Shown: positions 3,873 to 35,424 of the stretch, in pieces
Position numbering within the stretch: the stretch's first letter is position 1
Layout of the letters: each line of letters opens with the position of its first letter
Origin: an uncultured Bacteroidales bacterium
GTDB lineage: Bacteria > Bacteroidota > Bacteroidia > Bacteroidales > UBA932
DNA length: 64,000 nucleotides
Reading direction: 5' to 3'
Assembly (NCBI GenBank): GCA_900316955.1
Contig: ONEX01000011.1
Location: 62,001-126,000 of the forward strand
Position numbers and translations under genes: made by a program
The notes under the pieces: generated by a model
What the model was told of the DNA's origin: nothing
Seen by the model: only the letters and a program-made list of their open reading frames with translations
Databases searched by the model: none

Positions 3873-4578
3873 ATTCGTCAGCCATTAAAGCCAACCCCAT
3901 CAATACGAGGTTACAAATTACAAAGATGGAACTTTTCATCCGTTTTGCAAAATAATTCGCATCGCCGCCGGTAAACACGACGACATTCTCCGGATGCAGC
4001 GCCAGGTATCCCTCTATTTCAAATTGTATGCCCGAGACGACGCCGCTTTCGATGGAAGTCTGTTCCGACTGGCCCACCAGGGGGCAGTTTTCGGGGGTGT
4101 TCACCAGCGGAAGGGCGCGGGAATACCGGTTGAGCGCCTTGAACCGCGTGCGGCAGCCGAGGGAGATGTTTCCGCCCGTATAGAGGCCGTCCTTGTCCAG
4201 GTAATCGACCGTCAGGGTGGTGCCGAAGTCCACGAGGGTGCAGCCCATGCCGCGGAACAGGTACCGCGCCGCGAGGACGGAGGCCGCCCGGTCATAGGAC
4301 AGATAGACAGGAAGTCCGTGACTCAGAAGCGGTTCCTTGTGTTCCTTATCCAGCAGGAGCAGGTGGCCGCATTCGCCGGAGAGGGTCTTGCATTCCTCCT
4401 CGGTCAGGACATAGACGGAGGAAACGACCAGCACGGCCGGCTTCTCCCGGCGGGTGAGCGAGAGGGTGAAGTCCATCCATTTCTCGCCCTGGTACCGGAA
4501 GGTCTTTCCGAGGGTCATCCCGTCGGACCAGGCCGCTTTCAAAGCGGTGTTTCCTATTTCCACCAAAAGATTGGCCAT
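3850..4578 (-). CDS. coaX: Type III pantothenate kinase
   Basis: A 242-residue protein, the normal length for CoaX, which phosphorylates pantothenate in the first step of coenzyme A synthesis. Visible motifs are 'EIGNT' (residues 7-11, phosphate-binding loop), 'YDRAASVLAARYLF' (pantothenate side) and 'VDFGTTLTVDYLDKDG' (second phosphate loop). The first loop usually reads D-x-G-N-T; here Glu replaces the Asp (see findings). I chose the ATG at 4578 because the upstream in-frame TTG at 4587 falls inside a perfect -7 promoter box. The gene heads the coaX / outer-membrane protein / TPR / lptC run. Confidence 0.92.
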   Translation of the reverse strand: MANLLVEIGNTALKAAWSDGMTLGKTFRYQGEKWMDFTLSLTRREKPAVLVVSSVYVLTEEECKTLSGECGHLLLLDKEHKEPLLSHGLPVYLSYDRAASVLAARYLFRGMGCTLVDFGTTLTVDYLDKDGLYTGGNISLGCRTRFKALNRYSRALPLVNTPENCPLVGQSEQTSIESGVVSGIQFEIEGYLALHPENVVVFTGGDANYFAKRMKSSIFVICNLVLMGLALMADEYVKKNDR

Positions 4579-4584
4579 AGACTG

Positions 4585-4615
4585 CAAAAATAGTGATTTT
4601 CGGCGGTTATTGCAA
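4585..4615 (-). promoter_or_regulatory. Promoter of coaX (TTGC-N19-TATTTTTG)
   Basis: On the minus strand TTGC (4615-4612) is followed after exactly 19 bases by TATTTTTG (4592-4585), matching the Bacteroidota sigma-ABfr type promoter. The -33 part lies in the last codons of mfd. The implied leader before the coaX ATG at 4578 is only a few bases. Confidence 0.65.
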
Positions 4616-7600
4616 CCGTTGGAGCACCTTGAGGGCGGTTTCCAGGGAGTTGACGCCCCGGGAGACGGTCCGCAGTTTGCCCTTGTCCTGGTTCACCTTG
4701 AACAGGGCCGGATTGTCATTGACCTTGCCGATCACCCGCTCGAACTGCTTGGACTGGTAGTAGCCGGACATCGGGTTGGACACGAAGAACATGATCTGCA
4801 TCCCGTTCTTGACGATGATTTTCTCGAAACCGGAACGGGCGCCGAGGTTGCGGATCTTCACCACCGTCAGCAGGTTCTTCACCTGCGGCGGCATCGGCCC
4901 GAAACGGTCCTCCAGCTGGCGGCCCAGGCGGTCGATCTCGCGGTCGTCCTTGAGGCTGTCCAGCTGCTTGTAGAGCCGGATCTTCTCGGCGGTGATGTCG
5001 ATGTAGTCGTCCGGGATGAGCGCCGGCTGGTCGGTTTCCACGGTGCAGTCCTCGACGAAGGTTTCGCGGGACTGTTTGGTGGTGATGCCCGTTTCCACAC
5101 CCAGTTCCCCCATCGCCTCGGACAGGATCTGCTGGTAGGTTTCGAAGCCCATGTCGGAGATGAAGCCGCTCTGTTCCGCGCCCAGCAGGTTGCCGGCGCC
5201 GCGGATGTCCAGGTCCTGCATCGCGATGTTGAAGCCGCTTCCCAGGTCGGAGAACTCCTCGATGGCCTTCAGGCGGCGCCGCGCGTCGTCCGTGATGGAA
5301 ATCAGCGGCGGAACCACCAGGTAGCAGAAAGCCTTGCGGTTGGACCGGCCGACACGGCCCCGTAGCTGGTGCAGGTCGGAAAGGCCGATGTTCTGCGCCT
5401 GGTTGATGATGATCGTATTGGCGTTCGGAATGTCCAGGCCGTTCTCGATGATGGTCGTGCACAGGAGCATGTCGTAGTCGCCCCGCATGAAATCCAGCAT
5501 CTTGTTCTCCAGTTCCTTCGCTTCCATCTGCCCGTGCGCGATGCAGATCTTCATGTCGGGAACGAGCCGGTGCAGGATGTCGTGGATGGCCGGGAGTTCT
5601 TCCACCTTGTTGTGCAGGAAGAAGATCTGGCCGCCCCGGTTGAGTTCGTAGCTGATGATGCTCTTGATTTCCTGCTCGTCGAACAGGATGATTTCTGTCT
5701 GGATGGGAATCCGGTTCGGCGGCGGGGTGCTGATGATGCTGAGGTCGCGGGCGCCCAGGAGCGAGAACTGGAGGGTTCTCGGAATCGGGGTGGCTGTCAA
5801 CGTCAGGGTATCGACCGACGCCTTCAGATGGCGGAGTCTTTCCTTCGCCGCCACGCCGAACTTCTGCTCCTCGTCGATGACCAGCAGACCCAGGTCCTTG
5901 AAATCGAAGCCGGCGCCCAGCACCTTATGGGTGCCAATCAGGATGTCGATCTTCCCTTCTTTCAGCCTGTTCTTGATGTCGGTGATCTCTTTCGCCGTCC
6001 GCAGGCGGCTCACGTAATCGACCGTGCAGGGGAGTCCCTTGAGGCGGGACTTGAAGGTTTCGAAGTGCTGGAGGGCGAGGATGGTCGTCGGCACCAGCAC
6101 GGCCACCTGCTTGGAGTCGCAGACGGCCTTGAAGGCGGCGCGGATGGCCACTTCCGTCTTGCCGAAGCCCACGTCGCCGCAGACGAGGCGGTCCATCGGG
6201 CAGTTGTCCTCCATATCCTCCTTGACCGCCTTCGTCGCCCGCTCCTGGTCGGGCGTATCCTCGTACATGAAGGAGGATTCGAGCTCTTCCTGGAGGTAGG
6301 TGTCGGCCGAGAAGGAGAAGCCCTTCGAGGCCCGGCGCTTCGCGTAGAGCTGGATGAGTTCCTTGGCGATGTCCTTCACGCGGGACTTGGCCGATGTCTT
6401 CATCGTGGCCCAGGTCTTCGAGCCCAGCTTGTTGATCCGTGGCATCTCCCCTTCCTTGGACCGGAACCGGGAAATCTTGTGCAGGGAATGGACCGATACG
6501 AAGACGACGTCATTGTCCCGGTACATCAGTTTCACGACCTCATGGACCCGGCCCTTGTCGTCAGTCATTTTCACGAGACCGCCGAAAATGCCCACGCCAT
6601 GGTCGATATGGACGATGTAGTCGCCCAGGTTGAAGGAACTCAGGTCGTTGAGCGTCAGCTGCTCCGACTTTTCCACCGTCCTTCTCAGACGGACGCGGTG
6701 GAAACGGTCGAAGATTTCGTGGTCGGAATAGCAGCAGATGTGGTCCTCGTTGTCGATGAACCCCGCATGGATGTTCTTCCCTTTGACAAACTCCGGTAGC
6801 AGCGCATGTTCATCCTGCAGCATGATCGAGCGGAGGCGCTCCAGCTGGGATTCTTTCTCGCCGTAGATATAGACCTTATAATTGTTTTCCAGCCGAGTGC
6901 GAATGTCGGAGAGCAGGAGTTCGAAGTTCTTGTTGAACACTGGCTGCGGCGTAATGGAGAAAGCGACGTTGTCCACGCCCTGCCGCTGCAGCGGAATATC
7001 CAGATACACGTGCCGGAAAGAGGTCAGTTCCGGGAAGAACGGCCGGTCCTTGTACATGTCGGACGAGTCCAGCCAGACCACCGCATCCTCCTTCAGGAGA
7101 GTAAGGAGGCTGACGCCGCCCTCTCCCTGCCCGCCGGCGACGATGTCCGGATAGATGTCGGCCTTGTCCACCTTGTCGATGGACAGCTGCGTATTGCAGT
7201 CGAAGGTATGGATCTTTTCGATCTCGTTCCCGAAGAAAGTGAGCCGGTAGGGATGGTCCAGGGAATAGGAGAAGATGTCGATGACCGCGCCGCGGATGGC
7301 ATACTGCCCCGGGGCCGATACGAAGTCCACGCGCTCGAATCCCAGCTGGACCAGCTTGTCCCGCAAGGATTCGTAAGAGATTTCCTGGCCCACTTGGACC
7401 GTCAGGAGCGCGCCGGTGATCTTTTTCTGCTCGGGGACCGGCTCGTCCAGGGCCGTCGGGTAGGTGACGACAAACAAGGGACCCTTGCCCGGATCCATCA
7501 TCTTGCCGATGGCGGCCGTCCGTTGGACGCCGAGGGAGGACTTGTAATTGCTCCGTTCCACGGCGCCTCCGCTGTCCGGGAGAAAGAAAACGCAGTCGCC

Positions 7601-9979: not shown

Positions 9980-11929
9980 ATGGCTGACTCTAAACTTATC
10001 TCCAAGATTCCGGAAGGGCCGCTCGCCGAGAAATGGTCGAAGCGCAAGGCCGAAATCCGGATCGTCTCTCCGAACAACAAGCGGAAACTCGAGGTGATCG
10101 TCGTCGGTACGGGCCTCGGCGGAGCATCCGCAGCCGCCTCCCTGGGCGAGCTCGGATACAACGTCAAGATTTTCTGCATCTCCGACTCTCCGCGCCGCGC
10201 GCACTCCATCGCCGCACAGGGCGGTATCAACGCCGCGAAGAACTACCAGAACGACAATGACTCCATCTACCGGCTGTTCTACGACACCATCAAGGGCGGT
10301 GACTACCGTTCCCGGGAGGCGAACGTGTATCGCCTGGCGGAGGTAAGTGCGGCCATCATCGACCAGTGCGTCGCGCAGGGCGTTCCTTTCGCCCGTGAAT
10401 ACGGCGGATATCTGGCGAACCGCTCCTTCGGCGGTGTCCAGGTGAGCCGTACCTTCTACGCCCGCGGACAAACCGGTCAGCAGCTGCTTCTCGGCGCTTA
10501 TGCGGCCCTGAACAAGGAAATCGCCGCCGGCTCCGTGAAGAGCTATCCGCGCCACGAGATGCTGGACCTCGTCATCATCAACGGCGAGGCGAAGGGTATC
10601 ATCGCCCGCAACCTCGTGACCGGTGAGATCGAGCGCTTCGGCGCCCACGCCGTGGTCCTCGCTACCGGTGGTTACGGAAATGCCTATTTCCTGTCCACGA
10701 ACGCGATGAACTCCAACGGCTCCGCCGCGATGCAGGCCTACCGCAAGGGCGCTTTCTTCGCAAACCCCTGCTTCGCGCAGATCCACCCGACCTGTATTCC
10801 TGTCCACGGCGACCAGCAGTGCAAGCTCACCCTGATGTCCGAGTCCCTGCGTAATGACGGCCGCATCTGGGTGCCGAACAATATGGAGGATGTCATCAAG
10901 CTCCGCAAGCACGAAATCAAGCCTTCCCAGATTCCTGAGGAGCGCCGTGACTACTACCTGGAGCGCCGCTATCCGGCCTTCGGTAACCTGGTTCCGCGTG
11001 ACGTCGCTTCCCGCGCCGCGAAGGAGCGCTGCGACGCCGGCTACGGCGTGAACGAGACCGGCCTCGCCGTGTTCCTCGATTTCGCAGACGCCATCAAGCG
11101 CCTGGGTCACCAGCGCGTGGAAGAGCGTTACGGCAACCTCTTCCAGATGTATGAGAAGATCACCTCCTCTTCCCCTTGGGAGGAGCCGATGATGATTTAT
11201 CCAGCCATCCACTACACCATGGGCGGTCTCTGGGTCGATTATGACCTCCAGACCACCATCCCGGGTCTGTACGCCATCGGCGAGGCGAACTTCTCCGACC
11301 ACGGCGGCAACCGTCTCGGCGCTTCCGCCCTCATGCAGGGCCTGGCCGACGGTTACTTCATCCTCCCGTACACCATCGGCGACTACCTGTCCCACAAGTT
11401 CGCGGAGCCCAAGACCGACACCAACGCGCCTGAATTCGCCGTGGCCGAAAAGGCCGTCCGCGAGCGCATCGAGAAGATCTTCGCCGTGAAGGGTACCGAG
11501 ACCGTGGACAGCATCCACAAGAAGCTCGGCCACATCATGTGGGAGTATGTGGGCATGGCCCGCAACGAGGCCGGCCTGAAGAAGGCCATCGAGGAAATCG
11601 GCGAACTCCGGAAGGAATTCTGGAAGACGGTCCGCGTTCCCGGCACGAACGAGGAATTCAACCAGGAGCTTGAAAAAGCCCTCCGGCTGGTGGACTTCTT
11701 CGACATTGGCGAGCTGATGGCCCGCGATGCCCTGAACCGCAAGGAATCCTGTGGCGGCCACTTCCGCGAGGAAATGCAGACGGAAGAGGGTGAGACCAAG
11801 CGCGACGACGAGAACTTCATGTATGTGGGCGCCTGGGAATACAAGGGCGAAGGAGTCGCTCCGGAACTCCACAAGGAGCCGCTCAAGTATGAGAACATCA
11901 AGATTGCGACCCGTAACTATAAAGACTAA
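9980..11929 (+). CDS. frdA: Fumarate reductase/succinate dehydrogenase flavoprotein subunit
   Basis: A 649-residue FAD subunit that interconverts fumarate and succinate on the cytoplasmic face of the inner membrane; in anaerobic Bacteroidota it runs as fumarate reductase. The FAD Rossmann motif is '[19 protein letters not shown]' (residues 41-59). His75 in '[10 protein letters not shown]' is the expected covalent FAD attachment site. Also visible are '[20 protein letters not shown]', 'HPTCIP', '[25 protein letters not shown]' and '[16 protein letters not shown]'. Length and sequence fit the larger epsilonproteobacterial/Bacteroidota type rather than E. coli FrdA. frdB follows after 8 bases. 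The cytochrome b subunit gene expected upstream is absent. Confidence 0.95.
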
Positions 11930-14050: not shown

Positions 14051-14569
14051 CTACTCGTCACCTGCAAAGCCGGTGTAACGATAGCCATGGATGTAGAAGG
14101 AATCCCAGCCGTATTTGGGACCGTCTTCATCATCAGAGAAACTGATATAGAACTCGATAGCATCCGCCGGCATTCCGCTCGGGGTCTGGGCGCCACCCTT
14201 GACAATTTTGCCACCGGTCACGTTAATCACGCAGCCGTCTCCATAGAGGTTGTCCGCATTCTGGCTAGAGAAAGTCAATGTAGCCGGATCGGCAGTCACT
14301 TTTACCTTGAATTTCCAGAAAGGATCGTCGCGGTTGTCGGTGAGAAGCATTTCCGTGGCGATGTTCGCGGAAGTATTGGACGTGAACATATGGATATTAC
14401 CATAGTCATACACGTCTTCGTAAACCACTTGACCACCCTTCGCGGCGTCAACTATTACATACCAGTCTCCAGCCATGTCGACGGTGGCTGTCATCTCGAC
14501 CGGGTCTTTCTTGCAGGAAGCAAGCAGGCAGACGGAAAGAACACCTAAAATATAGAATACTTTTTTCAT
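14051..14569 (-). CDS. Small surface lipoprotein, Lipid_bd-like
   Basis: A 172-residue lipoprotein (lipobox LLASC, Cys at residue 19). The mature part 'ATVDMAGDWYVIVDA...' with later 'LLTDNRDDPFWKFKVKVTADPATLTFSSQ' resembles the lipid-binding putative hydrolase family found beside SusC/SusD pairs in Bacteroidota. It is the last gene of the left susCD operon, 13 bp after the preceding lipoprotein gene. It probably sits on the outer membrane and helps the uptake complex; the ligand is unknown. Family call is from memory of the motif. Confidence 0.6.
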   Translation of the reverse strand: MKKVFYILGVLSVCLLASCKKDPVEMTATVDMAGDWYVIVDAAKGGQVVYEDVYDYGNIHMFTSNTSANIATEMLLTDNRDDPFWKFKVKVTADPATLTFSSQNADNLYGDGCVINVTGGKIVKGGAQTPSGMPADAIEFYISFSDDEDGPKYGWDSFYIHGYRYTGFAGDE

Positions 14570-14582
14570 AACTGTTTCGTTT

Positions 14583-15269
14583 TTAAGGTTCGAAAGGAGT
14601 CAGGGCTACATTGATTCCGTCAAAGTTGTATTTGAACTCACCCGTTTCAGGATTGTAACCGCCCGTGATGTTCGAGTAATTGAAACTACTCATAAAGTAC
14701 CATTCAGATTTTTTCAGGATATTGAAGGTTCCATCCTCATTGAGGGAGAACTGAACCGTCGCATGAAAATTATAAGTAGGCTCGTAACCCGGATACACAC
14801 CGGCAAAATAGAAACCGCCAAGGAGGTCCTCAATTTCGTAAACACCGTCCGAAACTGGACTGATGACGATGGGGATGTTCTTGTAATTGCGGGATCCACT
14901 GTTATTCCAGCAGTTACTTATATACACATTGGCAACACCGCCCGGATTCAGAACATATACGTCACGGTTCAGGGTCCAGGAATAACCATCACTATTCGAA
15001 GCGCTGTAGCTCACGGAATAAATGCCGGGAATTTTCGGATTTACATTCGAATTGACGGTTACGTGAGAAGTGTAGTCATCGCCTTCGAGCGTAGCCGTAT
15101 AACCGGGTTCTTTGTAGTCACCACCTAACTGGATGACATAAGGATTGTCTCCCAACAGCGTGATGATAGGATAGTTGACGATTTGGGTATGACCTTTCGA
15201 AGTCTTTTCACAGCCCGAAGCCAACACCAGAAGTGCCGCAGAAAGGAGGAATATCAAATGCTTTTTCAT
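14583..15269 (-). CDS. Ig-like surface lipoprotein (DUF5011/DUF5012 type)
   Basis: A 228-residue lipoprotein (lipobox VLASGC). Residues about 30-110 form an immunoglobulin-like domain with the recognisable 'ITLLGDNPYVIQLGGDYKEPGYTA' and 'PGIYSVSYSASNSDGYSW' pattern of DUF5011 domains. The remainder ('VANVYISNCWNNSGSRNYKN...DGVYEIEDLLGGFYFAG') resembles DUF5012-type accessory proteins of SusCD loci. It likely presents a surface glycan- or peptide-binding site for the adjacent transporter. It follows susD by 12 bp and precedes the small lipoprotein by 13 bp, so all four genes form one operon. Confidence 0.65.
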   Translation of the reverse strand: MKKHLIFLLSAALLVLASGCEKTSKGHTQIVNYPIITLLGDNPYVIQLGGDYKEPGYTATLEGDDYTSHVTVNSNVNPKIPGIYSVSYSASNSDGYSWTLNRDVYVLNPGGVANVYISNCWNNSGSRNYKNIPIVISPVSDGVYEIEDLLGGFYFAGVYPGYEPTYNFHATVQFSLNEDGTFNILKKSEWYFMSSFNYSNITGGYNPETGEFKYNFDGINVALTPFEP

Positions 15270-15281
15270 AATCTTACCAAT

Positions 15282-16769
15282 TTATTTAGCCCAGAAAACC
15301 TTGTCGGTCAGCGGCTTCTCCGCCGGACAATTGGAATTGTAGAGAACCGAGGAATTGGCATACGGGAAGCGCTGGACGAGTTTGTTGGCTCCCACTTCGC
15401 TGTTTACCTGGTAAGGAGTGTAGAGGTCACCGGGTTCGAGTACGGAGGGATCCATGTTATCGGAACCGAAGCTGTACACATCTTCCGCCTTCTTGCCACC
15501 GAAAGTAGGATAGCCGAGACGGCGCATTTCGCACCAGGCCTCGAAGTTGTTTATACCGCTGAGGGCGATCCACTTCTGGATGCCGAGGGTCTTGTCGGTA
15601 CCGTCGAACGGGCAAGCCTCGATGACGTCGCTGGCTCCGCTGATGTCGGCGGACTCAAAAGAGGCCTCGATGGCCGCTTCGTAATAAGCCTTGGCCTTCG
15701 CCGTGTCCTTGTCAACCTTCGAATAATACTCGGAGAGCAGGAAGTAAATCTCAGAAAGCGAAATCAGATAAACAGGGTCGTCGTAGTTCACTTTCGGACG
15801 GCAGAACATAGCTTCCTTGTATTTGTTGGAAACGCTCATGTTGTAGCCGGAGATGCTGCCCCAGTACTGTTTGTTGCTATTCGCGCTGAAGAAGGCAGAG
15901 AGACGGGGATCACCGAAAGCTTCCATGGCCCGGTACAGGGCGACGTTCAAGGCAACGTTTTTCTGGGTGGATCCGAAGTAGGAAGCAAACTCTTCCTGAT
16001 AGAAAGGATTGGCCTTACCGGAAGCGTTCTCGACGAAGCAGGTATAAGCGACGTCAGCAGTCGGGAACTTGTCTTCGGCGACAAGAGCCTTCAACTGCGC
16101 ATCGACATTGACGACAGCGCGCTCACGCATAAGGAGCTTGAGTTTGAGGGCGTTTGCAAACCGGATCCAAGGACCGGCACCTTCGCCTGGATACAGCATG
16201 TTCGTGGCAACGGGCATGCTTTCGCTCGTAACCTTGGCAAGAGCTTCGTCCAGTTCGGCGATAAGGCCGGCATAGATGTCCTTTCCATCGTCAAACTTCG
16301 GATTCAGGTTCTCCAGACCCAGCTGAGCCTCGGTGTAAGGGGTCTCACCATAAGCGTCGACCAGAACCTGATAGGAGAACACGCGAATGACCGTGGCGGC
16401 CAGGTAAGATCCCCAGATTTCCTGTTCGACAGCCTTGTTCCGGACGAATGTGGCGTTGCCGATGGCGGCGCGGTTCAGATCCGAATAAGCGCCGTTCGTA
16501 CTGGTCGTGGCAACCTTGAACTGGCTGTAGGTGACATAATTGCTCGTTCCGAAGAAGTGAGCGTATTGCTCGGAGAAGTAACCGCCGAGGATACGGAGCA
16601 CGTCTCCATACCGGTCGGCAAGCGCCATTTCGGCCGCAGGAAGGGCCATGTCCATGGTCGCCTGGCTCTCTTCAGGAGCGTTCGGGGAGTGGTTGATATC
16701 CAGATAATCCTTGCAGGAAGTGAGGAAAAGGACGGCAACCGTTGCAATGATGGTAAATATCTTTTTCAT
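15282..16769 (-). CDS. SusD-like outer-membrane lipoprotein (SusD-like_2 type)
   Basis: A 495-residue lipoprotein (lipobox FLTSC) with the N-terminal 'DYLDINHSPNAPEES' and later 'AAEMALADRYGDVLRILGGYFSEQYAHFFG', typical of the SusD/RagB superfamily variant with TPR-like helices. SusD proteins form the lid over the SusC pore and bind substrate. Other landmarks are 'YQVLVDAYGETPYTEAQLG', 'PRLSAFFSANSN' and 'KWIALSGINNFEAWCEMRRLGYPTFGG'. It lies 14 bp after its susC. It is not closely similar to the right-hand SusD, so the two loci probably import different substrates. Confidence 0.88.
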   Translation of the reverse strand: MKKIFTIIATVAVLFLTSCKDYLDINHSPNAPEESQATMDMALPAAEMALADRYGDVLRILGGYFSEQYAHFFGTSNYVTYSQFKVATTSTNGAYSDLNRAAIGNATFVRNKAVEQEIWGSYLAATVIRVFSYQVLVDAYGETPYTEAQLGLENLNPKFDDGKDIYAGLIAELDEALAKVTSESMPVATNMLYPGEGAGPWIRFANALKLKLLMRERAVVNVDAQLKALVAEDKFPTADVAYTCFVENASGKANPFYQEEFASYFGSTQKNVALNVALYRAMEAFGDPRLSAFFSANSNKQYWGSISGYNMSVSNKYKEAMFCRPKVNYDDPVYLISLSEIYFLLSEYYSKVDKDTAKAKAYYEAAIEASFESADISGASDVIEACPFDGTDKTLGIQKWIALSGINNFEAWCEMRRLGYPTFGGKKAEDVYSFGSDNMDPSVLEPGDLYTPYQVNSEVGANKLVQRFPYANSSVLYNSNCPAEKPLTDKVFWAK

Positions 16770-16783
16770 GTTCGGATCCTCCT

Positions 16784-19700
16784 TTAGAATTTGATGTTGA
16801 GGTTGAAACCGTAGATGCGGCAGGTCGGGTTGACGTAGGTCTCACCGAACAGACCGCCGACGTCGGTACCTTCGTTGGTGGTTTCAGGATCGACGTAGTA
16901 GTTGTTCTTCGCGGTCCAGGTAAACGCATTGTTCACAAAGGCGGACAGAGAGACGCCCGTGAACGGGCCGATCCACTTCTTAGGCAGCGAATAGGTCAGG
17001 GAGATGTTGCGGATCTTCACGAAGTCACGGTCGATAAAGTAGAACAGACGACCTTCTGTTCCGCCGAATTCGTCGAAATAGTTCTGATAGGAACTGTCGC
17101 TGAGGTAGATCGGAGTGGTGTTCTCAACGAAGGTGTTGTCTTCGATCATCTGTACGGAGTTCGGAATCACGAACGGACGACGCTCGTTGTAAGTGGTGAC
17201 GAAACCGTTACCGGTGAACTCCATGATATTCTTCGAACGGGAGAACATTTTGCCACCCTTGCGGATATCGAGCGCAGCGCTGAACGAGAAGTTCTTGTAG
17301 GTGACGCTGGTGGTGATACCACCGGTCCAGTCGTAGTTGGCGTTGTATCCGGTCGGAGTCAGCGCATCAGACATCACAATCTGACCATTCTCATCCACGA
17401 TGAGCTTGCCGACATTCTTTCCGGTGGGATCGTAGTCGGGGTTCGGAATCGGCTTTCCCGTGGTCTCGTCCGTACCCAGGTACTGCTGGTCGGAGACATA
17501 TCTCGGAACATAGGTCCAGTAGGTACCGAACGGCTGGCCCACCTCGGCGTACATGTACACCTGGTCCTTAACGGCAGAAGTGGAGAAACCGTCCAGCTGG
17601 AGTTTGCCGCCGATTTCCTCAGGCAAGGATTCAACCTTGCTCCAGTTCTTGGCCCAGTTCACGGAGATATCCCACTTGAAGTCGCGGGTCTGCACCGGGA
17701 TGAAGTCGAAGAGCAGCTCGACACCCTTATTGCGGACGTCACCGGCGTTGGCGACCATCGAGGAGTAACCCGTGGCGGGTTCCATCGAGATGGAGAAGAT
17801 CTGGTCGGAGGTGAGCCGGTTGTAGAAGGCGGCGTCCACTCCGATGCGGCCGTTGAAGAACTGCAGATTTGCACCCATCTCAAACTCGGTGGTCATTTCC
17901 GGTTTCAGGGTCTGGCTGGCCAGGGAATAACCGCGGCGGAAAGCGTTGACTGAATTGATAGGGAAGCGCAAGATGTCAGAACCATAGGTTCCGGCGAAAC
18001 CGGCCTGGGTGAAGGTAGGATACGTGTTGTAAACACCGGCATCATTACCGGTCTTACCATAGGCGAGACGGATCTTACCAAAAGAGAGAACATCGTTCTT
18101 CGGGAGCCAGTTGGTGAAGATCGCGCTCAGGGTCGCACCCGGATAGAAATAGTTGTTGTTGTCCAGCGGGAGGGTGGAGGACCAGTCGTTACGGGCGGTA
18201 AGTTCGAGGAAGAGCGTTTCGTCCCAGCCGAGGGTGACGTCACCGAACAGGCCGATGAGGCGGCGCTTGGACTGGCTGTCGCTGAGGGTGGTCTTCGTGG
18301 CACCGTTGGAGAGGTTCCAGAAGCCGGTGTTGATGGTCAGGATGTCGGCCTGACCGGTCATCGAGGTGTTATAGCGCTCGTTGATGTTGAGACCGGCCAC
18401 CGCATCGACACTGAACCGCTCGTCCACAAACTTGTCGCTGTAGGAGGCCATGAAGTCGTGGTTGATTTCGTACTGGCGGTAGTACTGCGCATAGACGGAA
18501 CCATCCTCGTTCATGTTCTTCGGGGCATAACCCATATTGTCCCAGATCTTGGAGTCATCCAGTGCAATCTGCGGGGCGCCGGACTTGTAGTCATAGTCGC
18601 GGTGATAGAAGCTGTAACGATAGGTCAGGGTGACGGGTTTTACAGGCTTCACATCCAGTTGAATCTTGCCGAAGATGTTTTTCTGGGCCGTATTGTCGTA
18701 ACGGTTCTCGATAGCCCAGTACGGGCTGGTGATGCCGTAAGGAGTCAGGTAGGCTTCCGGGGAGTTGAACGCGGCCGGGAGGTCCTTCAGGTCAACCATG
18801 GAAATGTCACGCGGGAACTCGTACAGACCGTCGATCACGGAAGTACCCTGGAACATGCCCACAGACTGAGTCTGGGAAGTGGCGAAGTTGATCTGGGAGG
18901 AGAGCTTGAGCCAATCGACCGGCGTGTAGCTGTTGCGCATCGCGATGGTGTTGCGGCGGTAGTGGTCCTTGTTGCTCGGGATGATACCGTCATCGTCAGC
19001 CAGGGAGTAGGAGAGATAGTAGGTCATGCTCTGATCCTTGGAGGCACCGCTCATGGAGATGGAATGCTTCTGGTTCATGCCAATCTCGAAGAAGTCCCTG
19101 ATGTTGTTGGGAACGGCTTCGTATTTGTGAATCAGCTGCTGGCCGTTCCAGATAGGACCGTAGAGTTGCATGGAACCGTCGAAATGCGGACCCCAGGAAC
19201 CGTTTTCGATAAACGTCTGGGTACCGTTCCAACCCTGACCGAAATCGTTCTGGAAGATCGGGAGGAGGGAAACCTGGCGGGCCTCGAGGCCACCGCTGTA
19301 TTCGATGGTGAAGTTGCGGTCCGAACCACGCTTACCCTGACGGGTGGTGATGACGATGACACCATTTGCTGCACGGGAACCATAGAGAGCGGTAGCGGCC
19401 GCGCCCTTCAGGACGGTCAGGCTCTCGATATCCTCGCTGGCGAGGGTGCCCATGCCACCGACCACGATGCCGTCGATGACATACAGAGGCTGGTTGTTAC
19501 CGTTGATGGAGCTGTAACCACGGATGACCACGTTCACGGAAGCGCCCGGGTCGGTCGTGGTCGTCGAAACCTGCATACCGGCCACCTTACCGGAAAGGGC
19601 GGTGGTGACGTTGGTGGCATGCTGGCCGGCCAGCTCTTCATTCTTCACGGTCGTTGCGGCATAACCGAGGGTCTTTTCGGACCTTGTAATGCCCATGGCC

Positions 19701-20014
19701 GTCACGACGACTTCGTCGAGCGTCATGGCATCTTCCTCCATGGTGATGTCCATCTTGTTTCCCGTGACGGGGGCCTTGACGGACTTCATACCGAAGAGGT
19801 AGAAGGAGAGGGTCTGTCCTGGTCTTGCGCTGATGGTGAAGACACCATCGGATCCCGTGACAACGCCCAGCGTCGTGCCATCGACAACAACAGAGACGCC
19901 GGCCACCGGTTCACCTTTCGTATCGGTGATGGTACCGGTAACCTGCTGTCCCTGTGCGTAAGCTGCCGTAATGACAGCCAGAAGGCACGCCATGAACAGT
20001 TTTACTTTTTTCAT
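16784..20014 (-). CDS. SusC/RagA-type TonB-dependent outer-membrane transporter (left locus)
   Basis: A 1076-residue SusC. Order: signal peptide; a carboxypeptidase-regulatory-like domain ('VTGTITDTKGEPVAGVSVVVDGT'); a TonB plug ('NVTTALSGKVAGMQVS', 'VVIRGYSSINGNNQPLYVIDGI', 'DIESLTVLKGAAATALYGSRAANGVIVITT'); then a large beta-barrel ending in 'GFNLNIKF'. It imports oligosaccharides or peptides with its SusD lid. The start at 20014 is preferred over the in-frame ATG at 20020 because it aligns with the start of the right-hand susC. In this orientation I see no clear promoter immediately upstream, which fits an 'off' state of the proposed switch. Confidence 0.93.
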   Translation of the reverse strand: MKKVKLFMACLLAVITAAYAQGQQVTGTITDTKGEPVAGVSVVVDGTTLGVVTGSDGVFTISARPGQTLSFYLFGMKSVKAPVTGNKMDITMEEDAMTLDEVVVTAMGITRSEKTLGYAATTVKNEELAGQHATNVTTALSGKVAGMQVSTTTTDPGASVNVVIRGYSSINGNNQPLYVIDGIVVGGMGTLASEDIESLTVLKGAAATALYGSRAANGVIVITTRQGKRGSDRNFTIEYSGGLEARQVSLLPIFQNDFGQGWNGTQTFIENGSWGPHFDGSMQLYGPIWNGQQLIHKYEAVPNNIRDFFEIGMNQKHSISMSGASKDQSMTYYLSYSLADDDGIIPSNKDHYRRNTIAMRNSYTPVDWLKLSSQINFATSQTQSVGMFQGTSVIDGLYEFPRDISMVDLKDLPAAFNSPEAYLTPYGITSPYWAIENRYDNTAQKNIFGKIQLDVKPVKPVTLTYRYSFYHRDYDYKSGAPQIALDDSKIWDNMGYAPKNMNEDGSVYAQYYRQYEINHDFMASYSDKFVDERFSVDAVAGLNINERYNTSMTGQADILTINTGFWNLSNGATKTTLSDSQSKRRLIGLFGDVTLGWDETLFLELTARNDWSSTLPLDNNNYFYPGATLSAIFTNWLPKNDVLSFGKIRLAYGKTGNDAGVYNTYPTFTQAGFAGTYGSDILRFPINSVNAFRRGYSLASQTLKPEMTTEFEMGANLQFFNGRIGVDAAFYNRLTSDQIFSISMEPATGYSSMVANAGDVRNKGVELLFDFIPVQTRDFKWDISVNWAKNWSKVESLPEEIGGKLQLDGFSTSAVKDQVYMYAEVGQPFGTYWTYVPRYVSDQQYLGTDETTGKPIPNPDYDPTGKNVGKLIVDENGQIVMSDALTPTGYNANYDWTGGITTSVTYKNFSFSAALDIRKGGKMFSRSKNIMEFTGNGFVTTYNERRPFVIPNSVQMIEDNTFVENTTPIYLSDSSYQNYFDEFGGTEGRLFYFIDRDFVKIRNISLTYSLPKKWIGPFTGVSLSAFVNNAFTWTAKNNYYVDPETTNEGTDVGGLFGETYVNPTCRIYGFNLNIKF

Positions 20015-20094
20015 AAGCATGAAAAGTTTAGTTAAACATAAATATTGATAGTTTTTTCATTTGCAGTGGAAACACGCATAAACGGACGTTTTTC
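20001..20094. repeat. Left inverted repeat of the susC switch (crossover-like core plus shared leader)
   Basis: Contains the core AAACGGACGTTTTTC (20080-20094), the exact reverse complement of 21068-21082. The 18-base leader block at 20028-20045 is the exact inverse of 21118-21135. After that comes a start-codon region that is nearly identical to the other copy when inverted. Core-to-leader spacing is 34 bp here and 35 bp on the right. The core has palindromic arms (AAACG / CGTTT) around a two-base centre, as expected for a serine-recombinase crossover site. Confidence 0.75.
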
Positions 20095-20137
20095 GGGTAT
20101 GGTTTTCCCTGATGTTAGACTTAAACTTTGAAACCTC

Positions 20138-20734
20138 ATGAATTACGCCTACATCCGCGTCAGTACGCAGATTCAATCGTACGACGGACAGCACTACGAA
20201 ATCGAAAAGTGGTGCAAGAGACGAAATATCGGCATCGACCGATGGGTACAGGAAAAGGTCTCCGGCAGCAAGGACTGGAGTGAAAGGACCCTCGGAATCC
20301 TGATCAAACGGATGAGACAGGGAGATTTGCTGGTGTGCGCGGAACTATCCCGCTTAGGTAGGAATATGATGATGGTGATGTCCATTCTGAATGTATGTTC
20401 CAGGAAGGGAATACACGTCTATTCAATCAAGGACCATTTTGAACTGTCAGATGACCTGCAGTCAAAAATCGTGGCCTTCGCTTTTTCGCTGGCGGCAGAA
20501 ATTGAACGGAATCTCATTTCACAGCGGACCCGTGAGGCGTTGGCTGCCAAGAAAGCGGCCGGTGTCCGGCTGGGAAGGCCGGAGGGATCGTCATCCAAGC
20601 GAAAGAGGTTTGAAGAAAGACTTCCCGAAATCCTTCGGATGCGCGAGCAGGGAATCTGTATGGAATCCATCGCCAGGATGATGGATATTCACAAAAATAC
20701 GCTTTACCGGTATATGAAAGGAATCCGCTTGTAA
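20138..20734 (+). CDS. Serine recombinase (Mpi/Hin-like DNA invertase)
   Basis: A 198-residue site-specific serine recombinase. The resolvase domain begins MNYAYIRVST with the nucleophile Ser9; 'SRLGRN' (71-76) carries the conserved arginines; 'AEIERNLISQRTREALAAKKAAGVRLGRPEG' is the E-helix and linker; residues about 170-196 ('SIARMMDIHKNTLYRYMKG') form the HTH DNA-binding domain. Size and architecture match DNA invertases such as Hin and the Bacteroides master invertase Mpi. It lies inside a roughly 1 kb segment flanked by inverted crossover-like sites between two susC genes. A weak -7-like AAACTTTG (20123-20130) precedes it. Base composition is more AT-rich than the flanking susC genes. 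Confidence 0.93.
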   Translation: MNYAYIRVSTQIQSYDGQHYEIEKWCKRRNIGIDRWVQEKVSGSKDWSERTLGILIKRMRQGDLLVCAELSRLGRNMMMVMSILNVCSRKGIHVYSIKDHFELSDDLQSKIVAFAFSLAAEIERNLISQRTREALAAKKAAGVRLGRPEGSSSKRKRFEERLPEILRMREQGICMESIARMMDIHKNTLYRYMKGIRL

Positions 20735-21067
20735 ATAAGAGAGGGGATACGGAAGCAGCGAAACAGAATCTTCAGGATTGGCCAGGCAAGTCGTTCAAAA
20801 GGCGAAACGAGGTGTCTGGAGGGTACGATTTCCCGCTTTTTATGCGAATAAAACGAAAAAAATGCAAAAAAATAGAGGGCTTATAAATCAAAACAATTTT
20901 TTATTCAATTTATTTAATTAATTACGATTTGTAAGATATTGTTTGTATTTTGGTTTTAGATTATTTCCAGCAATGAGGTAAAACACTATTTTATAATCCA
21001 TTATAGGCCACCGGGATGATTTTGATTTGTAGTTTTTATTTTCAAACTTTGCAGTTGGATTAGTAGT
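20735..21067. other. AT-rich non-coding part of the proposed invertible segment
   Basis: There is no credible coding sequence in these 333 bases. The stretch 20840-20990 is very AT-rich. I see no strong terminator after the recombinase gene, so read-through toward the right-hand susC is possible. The only recognisable element is the promoter-like sequence at 21021-21051. Confidence 0.6.
21021..21051 (+). promoter_or_regulatory. Promoter-like sequence inside the proposed invertible segment, facing the right susC
   Basis: TTTG (21021-21024), 19 bases, then AAACTTTG (21044-21051; one mismatch to TAnnTTTG). Transcription would start near 21058, cross the core site at 21068-21082 and read into the shared susC leader. 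The left end of the segment has no equivalent outward-facing match. Confidence 0.5.
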
Positions 21068-21165
21068 GAAAAACGTCCGTTTTTGATTGTATTCGATACA
21101 AAGAACGTGATTTAATTATATTTATGTTTAACTAACCTTATCAAGCTTATGAAAAAAATGAAACT
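21068..21165. repeat. Right inverted repeat of the susC switch
   Basis: The core GAAAAACGTCCGTTT (21068-21082) has palindromic arms AAAAACG/CGTTTTT around the dinucleotide TC. The leader block ATATTTATGTTTAACTAA (21118-21135) and the first codons of susC (ATGAAAAAA...AAACTTTTT) repeat the left copy in inverted orientation. The asymmetric TC/GA centre sets the two cores in opposite orientation, the arrangement that yields inversion rather than deletion. Confidence 0.75.
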
Positions 21166-24400: not shown

Positions 24401-24418
24401 TTTGAGGAGGATTTGATT

Positions 24419-26089
24419 ATGAAAAATATACTGAAACTCTCCCTGGTCTCCCTCGCTTCCCTGACGCTGGCCGCCGGCTGCATTCAGGAGACTTTCCCGC
24501 AGACCAGTTATGTCACGACGACCCAGGCGCAGGTTCCGGGCGCCATCGACCGTTTCGTCGATGCCATCACCGCCACGCTCTGCGGCTTCCCCAACTACGG
24601 CGGCGGCACCGATGCCAATGACTTCGGCTACCCGCGTTTCTACATCGCTTGGGATTCGATGGGCCAGGACATTGTCCAGCCCAACCTGACCAATGGTTGG
24701 TTCAACAGCTGGTACACGATCCGCAGTCTCGGTGGAACCACCGGGAACTCCCAGTATGCCTGGACGATCCTCTATGGACACATCAAGGCCTGCAACGCCG
24801 TTCTCGCTTCCGTGGGTGCTGAACCGGAAGACAACGCCCTGAAGCCGGGCGCCGGTATCGCCTACTTCTATCGTGCTTACTTCTACTTGGACCTCGCCCA
24901 GATGTTCGCCAACAAGCCCTGCTATGTCGACGGCGAAGCCGAGACCGTTCCGTGGGTGGATGAGACCACCACGGTCGAACAGCTCCGTGAGAATCCCCGC
25001 CTGAAGAACAAGGATATGTTCGATCACATCATCTCCGACCTCGACCACGCGGAAGAGTACCTTGCTTTCTATCACCGTGCGGACAAGTACACCCCCGACG
25101 TGTCTTGCGCTTATGGCCTGAAGGCCCGCGCCTACCTGCTGATGGGTGACTGGGCCAAGGCGAAAGAGTATGCCAAGAAGGCCCAGGCCGGTTACACCCT
25201 GATGGACGAGGCCGCTTATACCAGCTGGGAGACGGGCTTCAACACCCCGAACAGCTCCTGGATGCTCGGTATGACTTTCAAGTCCGACAACCCTTGCATC
25301 CAGGCCAACGAAGCTGACTCCAGTTGGGGTTCCTGGATGTGCATGGAAATCAACCCCGCCACTTCCGGTTGCGGTTATGCCGCCAACTACGGCCGTCCGA
25401 TCCACATCGACCGTCACCTCTATGAGACCGTTCCGGCTTCCGACTTCCGCAAGAAGTGCTTTGCCGATTTCGCCATCGACGGCATGGGCGAAGAGGAGGC
25501 TATTGCCGCCCTTTCCGCCTACACCAAGCATCCGGACTGGATCTACGAGACCAACGCGGGCAACGGCAACCCGAACGGTGGTACGAACTTCAAGTTCCGT
25601 ACGGCCGGCGGTGAAGCCGGACGCAACAACCAGTACATCGGTTTCGTCGTGGCTGTCCCGATGATGCGTGTCGAGGAAATGTACCTGATCGAGGCGGAGG
25701 CCGCCGGCCGGATGAACGAGGCCGAAGGCATCGCCCTTCTGACCGCCTTCGCGAAGACCCGTGACGCGGAATATGTCTATGGTACGCACAACGAGGCTTA
25801 CTACAACAAGACCACCAGCGCGTTCATCAACGAGATCTGGTGGCAGCGGAGAATCGAATTCTGGGGCGAGGGCTTGGCCACCAAGGACATCAAGCGTCTC
25901 CAGAAGGGTGTCATCCGCAGCTATCCGGGTACCAACCACTACGAGACGAACCGCTACAACAAGGAAACGACCCCCGACTGGATGAACTTCTGCATCGTTC
26001 AGACCGAGACCAACTACAACACGGCCTGCACCAACAATCCGGAGCCGGATTATCCGCTGAAGGATTCTGAAGAGGTTACGACATTCTAA
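24419..26089 (+). CDS. SusD/RagB-family outer-membrane lipoprotein
   Basis: A 556-residue lipoprotein (lipobox LAAGC). N-terminal 'IQETFPQTSYVTTTQAQ' and 'WDSMGQDIVQPNLTNGWFNSWYT' are followed by the helical TPR-like core ('AWTILYGHIKACNAVLASVG', 'GIAYFYRAYFYLDLAQMFANKPCYVDG', 'CAYGLKARAYLLMGDWAKAKEYAKKA'). The C terminus has 'MRVEEMYLIEAEAAGRMNEAEGIALL' and 'FINEIWWQRRIEFWGEGLATKDIKRL', standard for SusD. I chose the ATG at 24419, which has AGGAGG about 10 bases upstream, over an in-frame TTG six bases earlier. It acts as the lid of the adjacent SusC. Confidence 0.93.
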   Translation: MKNILKLSLVSLASLTLAAGCIQETFPQTSYVTTTQAQVPGAIDRFVDAITATLCGFPNYGGGTDANDFGYPRFYIAWDSMGQDIVQPNLTNGWFNSWYTIRSLGGTTGNSQYAWTILYGHIKACNAVLASVGAEPEDNALKPGAGIAYFYRAYFYLDLAQMFANKPCYVDGEAETVPWVDETTTVEQLRENPRLKNKDMFDHIISDLDHAEEYLAFYHRADKYTPDVSCAYGLKARAYLLMGDWAKAKEYAKKAQAGYTLMDEAAYTSWETGFNTPNSSWMLGMTFKSDNPCIQANEADSSWGSWMCMEINPATSGCGYAANYGRPIHIDRHLYETVPASDFRKKCFADFAIDGMGEEEAIAALSAYTKHPDWIYETNAGNGNPNGGTNFKFRTAGGEAGRNNQYIGFVVAVPMMRVEEMYLIEAEAAGRMNEAEGIALLTAFAKTRDAEYVYGTHNEAYYNKTTSAFINEIWWQRRIEFWGEGLATKDIKRLQKGVIRSYPGTNHYETNRYNKETTPDWMNFCIVQTETNYNTACTNNPEPDYPLKDSEEVTTF

Positions 26090-26104: not shown

Positions 26105-27760
26105 ATGAAAAGATTAGCATACATTTCCCTGGCGTTCTTCGCCACGGCGGCTCTTTTCTCCTGCACAGAAAAGTCCACGTATGAGCCCGGTCCCCAGGCA
26201 AGCGGTGCGCAGTACTATTTCTCTTCGGACCAGGCGACGTCGGTCAACATCAGCCATACGACGCAGTCCGTCAGCATTGACGTCTTCCGTCTCGAGACCG
26301 GATCGGCCTCCACGGCGACCGTCTCCGTTGTCGACGAGTCCGGCCTCATCTCCAGCGCCTCTTCTGTGACCGCGAACTTCGCGGCCGGCAGCAACAAGGC
26401 TACGCTCACCTTCCCGATCACGCCTTCGGATTGGGAGTTCGCCAAGAACTACCCCGTCAACTTCACGATCTTCGACGAGAGCACTCCTTACGGAAAGTCC
26501 GAGCTGACGGTTACCTACAAGTATCCGACCCCGCTCAAGTCCCTCGGCAAAGCCCAGCTCACCGAGAACTACTTCACCGGTCAGACGTTCACGCCCCAGG
26601 TGTACCAGAGCGAGATCGACCCGAACGAGTACCATATCCAGAAATTCATGGGAGCCAAGTCCGAGGACCTGATCATCCACGTGACCAAGGCTGGTGACAA
26701 GTTCGGCAACGTCTCCTTCACCCAGGCCGGCCTGGTCTACTTCGACGATGCGTGGTCGGGAATTACCTATGCGGACGTCAATTCGGGCGGTAAACCCGAA
26801 CAGCATATCGATGTCTGCCACCCCGCCGGTTTCAGGACGTATTCGACTGACGAGTCCAAATGGGCGGGCAGCAAGGTGGTCCTGTTCCAGGACAATGGCA
26901 TTCCGGCTGTCGTCGAAATCGCTCCGTACTATTATATCTCCGGACTGGGTGGTTGGGACCAGACGCAGACTCCTGCGAACATTGTCATCATTTTCCCGGG
27001 TTATGAGCCCAAGGACTATGCCGTGGAGGCCACCTATGCGGGTCTCTTCACGGAGAGTGACGGTACCGTCTACGGAGAGGCGTCTGTGACCCTCGGTGTC
27101 GATCTCGAAGGCGGTGTCGCCGTCATCGTGCCCGGCGCCGACGAGGATGCCATTGCCGCCGGTGTCGAGAAGCTCGCTTCCGACGAAGCCGTCGCTTTCA
27201 GCGGTTCGACAGTCCGGGTTCCGCTTCCCAAGGATGTACAGACCGGTTTCTACACGATCGTCGTCGGTGGCGTTGCCGAAGATGTGGTCCAGGCGGTCGA
27301 CGCCGTGCCCTTCTATTATCAGGGCGGTCCCCTCGATTGGGATTGGCTGCTCGGCGACTGGGGCGCTTACGACTACAACCTGTCCGAGCGGGTCGTGGAA
27401 GGCGATCCCTATGGGATGACCATCGCCAAGGTGGATGACACCCACATTAAGATCGGCAACCTCTGGGGCACCGAAGCCGAGTTTGACGCTGTCGTCGATT
27501 TCGACGCCATGACCATCACGATTCCGGGCAACCAGTTTGCGTATCACGATTCCGGTGTCGACGGAGACTGCAATTTCGTGGCCGTCGATCCGGAGAACGA
27601 GTTTGACACTTTCGAGGACCTGACGACCCCGGTGATCGTCAAGATGACGCCCGGCGGCCTCGTCATTGACAACTACGATTTCCTCATCACGAGTGGCAAA
27701 TACAAGGGTTATACCTATGACGGTGGTATCCGTACGACCATGTTCAAGCCGCTCCCCTAA
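26105..27760 (+). CDS. Large surface lipoprotein of the right SusCD locus, function unknown
   Basis: A 551-residue lipoprotein (lipobox ALFSC). The first ~140 residues after the signal look like a Calx-beta/Ig-type beta-sandwich ('VNISHTTQSVSIDVFRLETGSASTATVSVVDESG'). The middle has tandem beta-rich segments. The C-terminal part ('LLGDWGAYDYNLSERVVEG...DTHIKIGNLWGTEAEFDAVVDFDAMTITIPG') resembles the lipocalin-like 'D-W' domain found in many accessory lipoproteins of SusCD loci. No catalytic signature is visible. As the third gene of the operon (15 bp after susD) it is most likely a surface substrate-binding protein. It is followed by a good terminator. Confidence 0.6.
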   Translation: MKRLAYISLAFFATAALFSCTEKSTYEPGPQASGAQYYFSSDQATSVNISHTTQSVSIDVFRLETGSASTATVSVVDESGLISSASSVTANFAAGSNKATLTFPITPSDWEFAKNYPVNFTIFDESTPYGKSELTVTYKYPTPLKSLGKAQLTENYFTGQTFTPQVYQSEIDPNEYHIQKFMGAKSEDLIIHVTKAGDKFGNVSFTQAGLVYFDDAWSGITYADVNSGGKPEQHIDVCHPAGFRTYSTDESKWAGSKVVLFQDNGIPAVVEIAPYYYISGLGGWDQTQTPANIVIIFPGYEPKDYAVEATYAGLFTESDGTVYGEASVTLGVDLEGGVAVIVPGADEDAIAAGVEKLASDEAVAFSGSTVRVPLPKDVQTGFYTIVVGGVAEDVVQAVDAVPFYYQGGPLDWDWLLGDWGAYDYNLSERVVEGDPYGMTIAKVDDTHIKIGNLWGTEAEFDAVVDFDAMTITIPGNQFAYHDSGVDGDCNFVAVDPENEFDTFEDLTTPVIVKMTPGGLVIDNYDFLITSGKYKGYTYDGGIRTTMFKPLP

Positions 27761-35004: not shown

Positions 35005-35424
35005 ATGGTCTCTTACTTTACAGAAGATACGAAGTTCGCGTTCAAGGAGAAACGGCTCACAAACCGCTGGCTCAAGCTTGTTGCCGAGAGCGAAATCCGC
35101 CGCCTGGGCGACATCTCGATCATTTTCTGTTCGGACAACTACATCCTGGACGTGAACATGAAGTATCTCCAGCACGATTACTTCACAGATATCATCACTT
35201 TCGACTACTGCGAAGGCGACCGCCTGAACGGCGACCTCTTCATCAGTGTCGATTCCGTCCGGGAGAATGCGCAGTTCTACGGGACTGAGTTCGAGAACGA
35301 GCTCAACCGGGTGATTGTCCATGGCGTCCTCCACCTGATCGGCTATGACGACCATACCGAGGAAGACATCGCCGTGATGCGTTCCAAGGAGAACTACTAT
35401 CTTTCCCTCCGGGAGCTCGTATGA
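35005..35424 (+). CDS. ybeY: Endoribonuclease YbeY (16S rRNA maturation factor)
   Basis: A 139-residue metalloprotein of the UPF0054 family, involved in 16S rRNA 3' end maturation and ribosome quality control. The metal-binding signature is HGVLHLIGYDDH with His106 and His110; the third ligand position is Asp116 or His117 because the loop reads Y-D-D-H. The start at 35005 (MVSYFTEDTKF) fits a promoter whose -7 box ends at 34989, excluding the in-frame ATG at 34948. It overlaps mnmG by 4 bases (ATGA). Confidence 0.93.
   Translation: MVSYFTEDTKFAFKEKRLTNRWLKLVAESEIRRLGDISIIFCSDNYILDVNMKYLQHDYFTDIITFDYCEGDRLNGDLFISVDSVRENAQFYGTEFENELNRVIVHGVLHLIGYDDHTEEDIAVMRSKENYYLSLRELV

Follow-up and report, generated by a model that had tools for sequence, protein, structure and literature searches.

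Bacteroidota import nutrients mainly through SusCD systems, which can also be targets of phages and immunity. In Salmonella, flagellar phase variation depends on the invertase Hin and the H segment. Passages of PMC11868660 describe the Hin mechanism. Portions of PMC4747536 report that Mpi of Bacteroides fragilis inverts 13 regions, seven of them capsule promoters, and describe in the same species a SusC/SusD shufflon (Tsr0667) and local-plus-distant promoter inversions (BF2766/Tsr19). Invertons near RagB/SusD and TonB-receptor genes of gut bacteria figure in parts of PMC11892184 and PMC10939037; PMC8748976 and PMC12632263 were consulted as well. Here we analyze a locus in a 64,000-nucleotide stretch (the window) of contig ONEX01000011.1 from an uncultured Bacteroidales bacterium, where the gene for a serine recombinase lies between two divergent SusCD operons. 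The segment at 20095-21067 is, with high probability, a self-encoded invertible promoter cassette, predicted from its sequence to act as a two-state toggle of the two operons. Its sites, their matched centres, the one-sided promoter-like boxes and the opposite orientations found between species can be read directly in the genomes compared.

Anatomy of the candidate cassette

The principal features, in window coordinates, are as follows.

20095..21067, no strand: proposed invertible segment, 973 bp between two 15-base cores, with the recombinase gene and the predicted outward promoter
20080..20094, minus strand: left crossover core GAAAAACGTCCGTTT, exact; 12-base palindromic site at 20080-20091, centre TC read outward
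21068..21082, plus strand: right crossover core GAAAAACGTCCGTTT, exact; 12-base palindromic site at 21071-21082, centre TC read outward
20138..20734, plus strand: serine recombinase, 198 aa, Mpi-like, with a Resolvase domain and a helix-turn-helix
21021..21051, plus strand: predicted outward promoter, TTTG at 21021-21024, 19 nt, then AAACTTTG at 21044-21051; ends 19 nt before the right 12-base site
16784..20020, minus strand: left susC (SusC/RagA family), TIGR04056
21149..24400, plus strand: right susC (SusC/RagA family), TIGR04056
20028..20045, minus strand: left leader motif, 18 bases repeated exactly and in inverted form on the right, belonging to the conserved TCAATATTTATGTTTAAC element
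21118..21135, plus strand: right leader motif, repeating the left one in inverted orientation

An initial annotation of the window, made from its letters alone, had proposed that two divergent susC genes flank a Mpi/Hin-like serine recombinase. Domain matches bear this out: the two susC products score 630.5 and 719.8 bits against TIGR04056 (cut-off 368.25), and the recombinase scores 113 bits against the Resolvase model PF00239 (cut-off 23.3). With HTH_23 at its C-terminus (26.5 bits, cut-off 24.6) and an alignment to the DNA-invertase chain 4m6f over the RVST and RLGR motifs, the protein has both the catalytic domain and the C-terminal helix-turn-helix of the serine recombinase (resolvase/invertase) family. 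The likeness to Mpi holds by sequence, NF009949 (Mpi) being the nearest named family, but not by score, since 254.4 bits falls under the 272-bit cut-off for equivalogs. The annotated segment of about 1 kb including the recombinase gene measures 973 bp, and the identical inverted cores at its ends, with palindromic arms around an asymmetric two-base centre, were located exactly where proposed, TC being the centre at both ends. A match of the core to ARACGTWCGT at nine of ten positions was counted correctly; a full-text search for that motif, in a collection with few subscription papers, retrieved no paper, and the link to Mpi that the initial annotation gave it is tentative.

The recombinase would cut both 12-base palindromic sites at the asymmetric two-base centre, and rejoining of the cut sites would turn the segment around. 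A single outward promoter at the recombinase-downstream end is predicted to read into the right susCD operon in the sequenced orientation and would read into the left one after inversion, each operon keeping its own leader outside the site. The outcome would be a two-state toggle within a population, with one operon on and the other off.

Core and leader are private to the locus

The genome that contains the window comprises 3.13 Mb in 38 contigs. Within the window, six matches to the core with at most three mismatches were found against 1.95 expected, a number reached in one of 100 shuffles. Across the whole 3.13-Mb genome, a 14-mer of the core with at most one mismatch occurs only at the two sites of this locus. 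Exact AAACGNNCGTTT occurs at four genomic places (more degenerate sites lay outside the search), two of which belong to this locus; the others, C22 and C26, are single, and C26 adjoins a recombinase of 36-38% identity, with no susC match within 1.5 kb. A master invertase of the Mpi type would be expected to have many distant promoter sites. With only two copies of the core at up to one mismatch, a global Mpi-like regulon finds no support in the window's genome and, because the core is private to this locus, the recombinase looks like a dedicated local invertase rather than a global one. L125 (4690-5240; 36-38% identity), the second and distant resolvase gene of this genome, has a single AAACGGTCGTTT upstream and no susC match within 1.5 kb.

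Outside the cores, the 18 identical bases that the initial annotation had noted in the two susC leaders form an exact inverted repeat (20028-20045 / 21118-21135) within a 51-base repeat of 88% identity. The leader 15-mer AATATTTATGTTTAA occurs, at up to one mismatch, at only two genomic places, both at this locus, compared with 43 SusC matches over the family cut-off in the genome. A generic susC leader is thereby ruled out. It had been foreseen that a core lying upstream of many susC genes without a recombinase would instead be an operator or conserved leader; core and leader each occur just twice.

Crossover centres agree within loci

A recombinase match at E up to 1e-58 was found in 94 of 400 genomes of the window's genus, with 104 matches in all. 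The set used below consists of 59 loci, namely the window and the 58 best of the remaining matches, taken with flanks of about 5 kb wherever the contig was long enough; the weaker 45 were excluded. Divergent susC genes lie within 2.5 kb on both sides in 42 loci, on one side in 13 and on neither in 4. A tree that also included 26 more distant relatives groups 58 of the 59 recombinases in a single clade (support 100/99) and places L123 outside it.

Sites were sought with the pattern AAACGNNCGTTT at no fewer than 8 of 10 fixed positions, and a site on each side of the recombinase was found in 44 of the 59 loci; a motif-free search for inverted repeats recovered repeats over the same core in L006, L008, L026, L033, L035 and L039. 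Read outward, the two ends of a locus share their two-base centre in 41 of the 44 loci, where 20,000 permutations gave a mean of 9.5 and a maximum of 21. None of the 44 matches in the reverse-complement sense. Among right-end centres, CC occurs 14 times, CT 9, AC 8, GA 7, TC 2, AA 2, AT 1 and GT 1. Two named loci outside the set, L027 and L039, also have the same centre at both ends, as judged by eye. The window, with TC at both ends, and its relatives therefore carry what characterizes serine invertase crossover sites, an identical asymmetric centre in both inverted sites. Because the 41 matched centres are all non-palindromic, inversion would be favoured over deletion. A centre that varies between loci yet agrees within each is what strand exchange between the two sites would require, given the known mechanism of serine invertases.

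A promoter-like sequence at one end of the segment

The boxes TTTG-N22..25-TTTG, read outward, lie inside the right site in 32 of 50 loci and inside the left site in none of 44 (Fisher P 1.6e-12). In a relaxed form the boxes occur in 42 of 50 right inner flanks, where mononucleotide shuffles predict 8.6, and in 3 of 44 left inner flanks, where 4.8 are expected. For 33 of the 42 relaxed matches the script settled on a spacer of 20 nt, and in 39 the distance from the end of the second box to the core is 16-21 nt. Bacteroidales promoters have a -33/-7 arrangement, and the conserved boxes resemble its consensus. The segment thus appears to carry one promoter-like sequence, pointing outward at the recombinase-downstream end, and one operon would therefore be served at a time. 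Inverted repeats around a promoter that points outward at one end, the arrangement of an inverton, are present here, the promoter being recognized by its sequence. For the recombinase itself, a loose promoter match lies in 14 of 59 upstream regions, and across the left site in 11 of 44 against 5.2 expected.

The segment might flip without reciprocal control, for instance with one operon dependent on it and the other served by its own regulated promoter. Promoter rules in Bacteroidales are loose, and promoters for alternative sigma factors in the leaders would escape the scan. Standard promoter-like boxes in the outer leaders, at any rate, do not rise above shuffles (5 of 44 vs 5.2; 7 of 50 vs 4.5), and leaders of both sides have the same conserved element (88 of 94 by pattern), which makes this alternative unlikely. 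The conserved leader element, TCAATATTTATGTTTAAC, was found by its core pattern in loci L067-L124 and the window, mostly 16-22 nt before the susC start chosen by the script, a distance partly fixed by the search pattern itself. It may contain a three-codon open reading frame (ATG TTT AAC TAA), with exactly these letters in 34 of the 88.

Cassette orientation differs between species

All orientation evidence is between species, with one genome per species. Orthologous susC genes were sought among 95 susC proteins from the 59 loci plus L027 and L039. The 32 mutual-best pairs divide into 19 that occupy the same end of the cassette and 13 that occupy opposite ends; among those with an identity of at least 90%, the counts are 2 and 6. 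When all susC pairs of at least 90% in the 59 loci are taken, 5 share the end and 8 do not. For 21 opposite-end pairs (75% or more), the 60 bases inside the core are 0.57 identical against a background of 0.58, and the 60 bases before susC are 0.71 identical against 0.65.

Longer alignments were made for nine of these 13 pairs of at least 90%. Six of the nine show the cassette turned around relative to a collinear block spanning 5.9-15.9 kb: G147/G260 (15.9 kb), G269/G260 (14.2 kb), G334/G367 (11.7 kb), G403/G092 (10.1 kb), G269/G328 (7.4 kb) and G365/G090 (5.9 kb), some of these spans being in two or three pieces. The six are partly dependent, as G260 and G269 appear twice each, and the direction of the G403 recombinase, at the edge of its aligned stretch, was taken from the genus scan. 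Four of the spans exceed 10 kb, compared with about 5 kb for susC plus susD. Two aligned pairs, G385/G062 and G392/G295, have the same orientation, and in G179/G188 the operon has switched ends while cassette and outer flanks stand in unchanged order.

Comparison by hand of block ends with site positions places the breaks at most about 60 bp from the core. The block starts 1-2 bp from the inner edge of both sites in G365/G090; in G269/G328 it starts within the site of G269 and, on the G328 side, 10 bp outside the site. It ends 11 bp inside both sites in G403/G092 and 6 bp inside the G260 site in G269/G260, and it stops 17 and 35 bp outside the sites in G147/G260 and 19 and 56 bp outside them in G334/G367. 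Both orientations, as expected of an inverton, thus occur among related genomes, and the search for the opposite orientation suggested by the initial annotation was productive at the level of species, each reversed pair being orthologous on one flank. Three locus pairs, L084/L116, L110/L115 and L071/L092, had looked like reversed loci with both operons kept; they were set aside, as shuffled partners give equally many. Together with the matched centres and the one-sided promoter, the reversals support the proposal that both uptake loci may be controlled reciprocally by one self-encoded invertase.

The chromosomal slot and exchange of operons

In the window, the locus is flanked by frdA (9980-11929) and mnmG (35421-37280). 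In eleven genomes, that of the window included, both anchors share a contig with the recombinase and lie on either side of it (frdA in G375 is a partial match at a contig edge). The recombinase is directed toward mnmG in 6 of these and faces frdA in the other 5; in three further genomes with one anchor it points toward frdA. The 14 anchored loci yield 20 susC pairs of at least 45% identity. Fifteen of them stay at their end of the cassette, and a single pair, the right susC of the window and that of L075, keeps the chromosomal side and changes the cassette end. The anchors were therefore abandoned as proof of cassette-only flips, operons having often moved together with the cassette. In some genomes, such as G164 and G179, frdA and mnmG lie 2-4 kb apart, as in an empty slot, and the recombinase is on another contig.

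A different explanation treats the sites as places where entire SusCD operons are exchanged over evolutionary time, operons being swapped at either end by the recombinase or by homologous recombination near the sites, with flipping within a population not the main function. Operon partners are indeed re-shuffled between loci, and operon DNA identity often stops at or near the core. In G179/G188 the operon that changed ends, with cassette orientation unchanged, is 89% identical over 5.5 kb where the mnmG region is 79% identical. The first 7.3 kb of G147/G260 are 90% identical and the remainder 72-83%, a further hint of operon transfer; mnmG of one partner was not found for this pair, nor for G365/G090. 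Three other pairs differ little between operon and mnmG (82 and 76% in G403/G092, 80 and 76% in G269/G328, 76 and 72-77% in G334/G367), and do not show recent transfer. A general operon identity near 90% in species with 72-79% mnmG identity was accordingly dropped, only G179/G188 showing it. Exchange alone would leave unexplained the single promoter just inside one site, the matching of centres within a locus and the six reversals of the cassette against collinear blocks, and we regard it as improbable.

Over time, operons have been replaced at either port, with sequence support for recent transfer in one pair, G179/G188. A bolder combination of the two ideas, doubtful at present, is a genus-wide two-port expression hub, in which private sites both toggle the promoter and mark joining points for pooled SusCD operons. 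If true, one serine invertase would choose the uptake system and also let operons swap modularly between loci and species. Our estimate for this was lowered because recent transfer between species is supported in that single pair.

Weighing the invertible cassette

Several observations tell against an invertible promoter cassette. No species, at one genome each, is represented in both orientations. In the window's sub-clade (recombinases at least 60% identical), 9 of 11 mutual-best pairs share the cassette end, and frequent flipping is less well supported there than elsewhere in the genus. Each reversed pair is orthologous on a single flank, because operon pairing is not conserved between species beyond chance: locus pairs with both susC genes orthologous at 50% identity number 5, against 6.2 among shuffled partners (5 reached in 144 of 200). 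For 22 same-end pairs, the inner flank is 0.625 identical, the value also obtained for random right-right pairs; because inner flanks of same-side orthologues are also at background, the link between operon and cassette is broken at the core in either orientation. In 17 of the 59 loci a susC neighbour is missing on one side or on both, and in 8 of the 17 a contig end lies no more than 400 bp from the recombinase. A right inner promoter, even in the relaxed form, was not found in 8 of 50 loci. Centres were unmatched by automatic choice in 3 of 44: L069 carries the single AT and has no right susC found, the left flank of L074 ends at a contig end, and in L115 the second candidate of the script (8 of 10, at +213) has CT, the centre of the left site.

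A static divergent locus would account for some of this. The cores would be operators for autoregulation of the recombinase, the leaders would be alike through susC duplication, and nothing would invert. Inversion has not been directly observed, the prevailing agreement of cassette side in the sub-clade suits such a locus, and Hin-type invertases can act on their own promoters. Opposite orientations in six of nine aligned pairs, both recombinase directions at the frdA-mnmG slot (6 and 5 of 11) and matched centres in 41 of 44 loci make it very improbable. For the invertible cassette, a contig end within 400 bp of the recombinase in 8 of the 58 fetched loci, against 1.2 expected, would fit mixed orientations in the samples; this is suggestive only, as repeats can have the same effect.

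Neighbouring genes and distribution

Both operons of the window continue beyond susC.

15282..16769, minus strand: left susD-like gene (SusD-like_2), domain match
14583..15269, minus strand: surface Ig-like / BT_2262-like protein, next gene left, domain match
14051..14569, minus strand: lipid-binding putative hydrolase, next gene left, domain match
24413..26089, plus strand: right susD (SusD-like_3 / SusD_RagB), domain match
26105..27760, plus strand: 551-aa protein, next gene right, without a Pfam match

A scan of named genomes for close relatives gave 16 loci. Fourteen, at 61-71% identity, are from metagenome-assembled Bacteroidales or Bacteroidia, several from ruminants; the other two are a Rhizobium locus at 28% and, in a Spirochaetaceae bin, a short match of 62% at the edge of a contig. 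The recombinase clade is known here from one genus only, where it is present in at least 58 of the 400 sampled genomes. In the order as a whole, matches at E up to 1e-50 occur in 25 of 393 genomes, and the matches listed are at most 51% identical except for the window and L057, which is of the same genus. Twenty-seven relatives were examined with up to 1.5 kb on each side, 26 of them at 36-52% identity and one, L016, at 56% and truncated by a contig end; L136 alone among them has a susC match. A further relative, L024, is broken and contains a run of N; susC flanks it on one side.

Core-to-core segments in 41 related loci, with sites chosen automatically, span 757-2799 bp (median 872). Between a far left site and the recombinase, L071 encodes a PD-(D/E)XK nuclease-like protein (3848-4894) and L118 a DUF3990 protein (4261-4755); the L105 segment carries an ATPase, identified by eye. 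A second left site candidate (9 or 10 of 10) occurs in L070, L105 and L112, and two left sites could give these loci more than two states. The susC genes that flank the L027 cassette share a 121-base exact inverted repeat (5678-5798 / 6974-7094), with shorter ones near their starts, much as might be left after recent duplication or gene conversion across the cassette.

Comparison with known systems

A self-contained toggle that keeps one of two importers on would be a simple and portable form of bet-hedging. The locus offers a testable two-state system with known junctions, and its relatives provide a set of serine invertase/site pairs with differing centres.

Like the Hin system, the locus has a segment of about 1 kb with its own serine invertase, a predicted outward promoter near one end and a two-base crossover centre. 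Unlike it, an operon with a like leader stands at both ends, so that the promoter could serve either, and the targets are SusCD genes. With Mpi it shares the nearest named family and the proposed inversion of a promoter, along with, tentatively, a resembling core motif proposed in the initial annotation; Mpi, however, is a master enzyme that acts on distant sites, whereas here the genome holds two cores, the gene lies inside the segment and the score is under the cut-off. The parts of the literature cited above that deal with Tsr0667 and BF2766/Tsr19 describe, as proposed here, DNA inversion that varies SusC/SusD or surface genes in Bacteroidales. In those accounts BF2766 is a tyrosine recombinase, and Tsr0667, of tyrosine type by its name, serves multi-segment shufflons; our locus has instead a serine recombinase and a two-state promoter cassette. 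The gut invertons likewise include invertible regions beside SusCD genes, but the invertases named in those portions are tyrosine-type or a 'site-specific integrase', and a two-operon cassette with an internal serine invertase does not feature in them. A full-text literature search, which covers few subscription papers, found no description of a self-contained serine invertase-promoter cassette between two SusCD operons. Hin-like in its predicted working, and Mpi-like by sequence but not by score, the cassette very likely acts as a self-encoded promoter switch with two states, one for each uptake operon.

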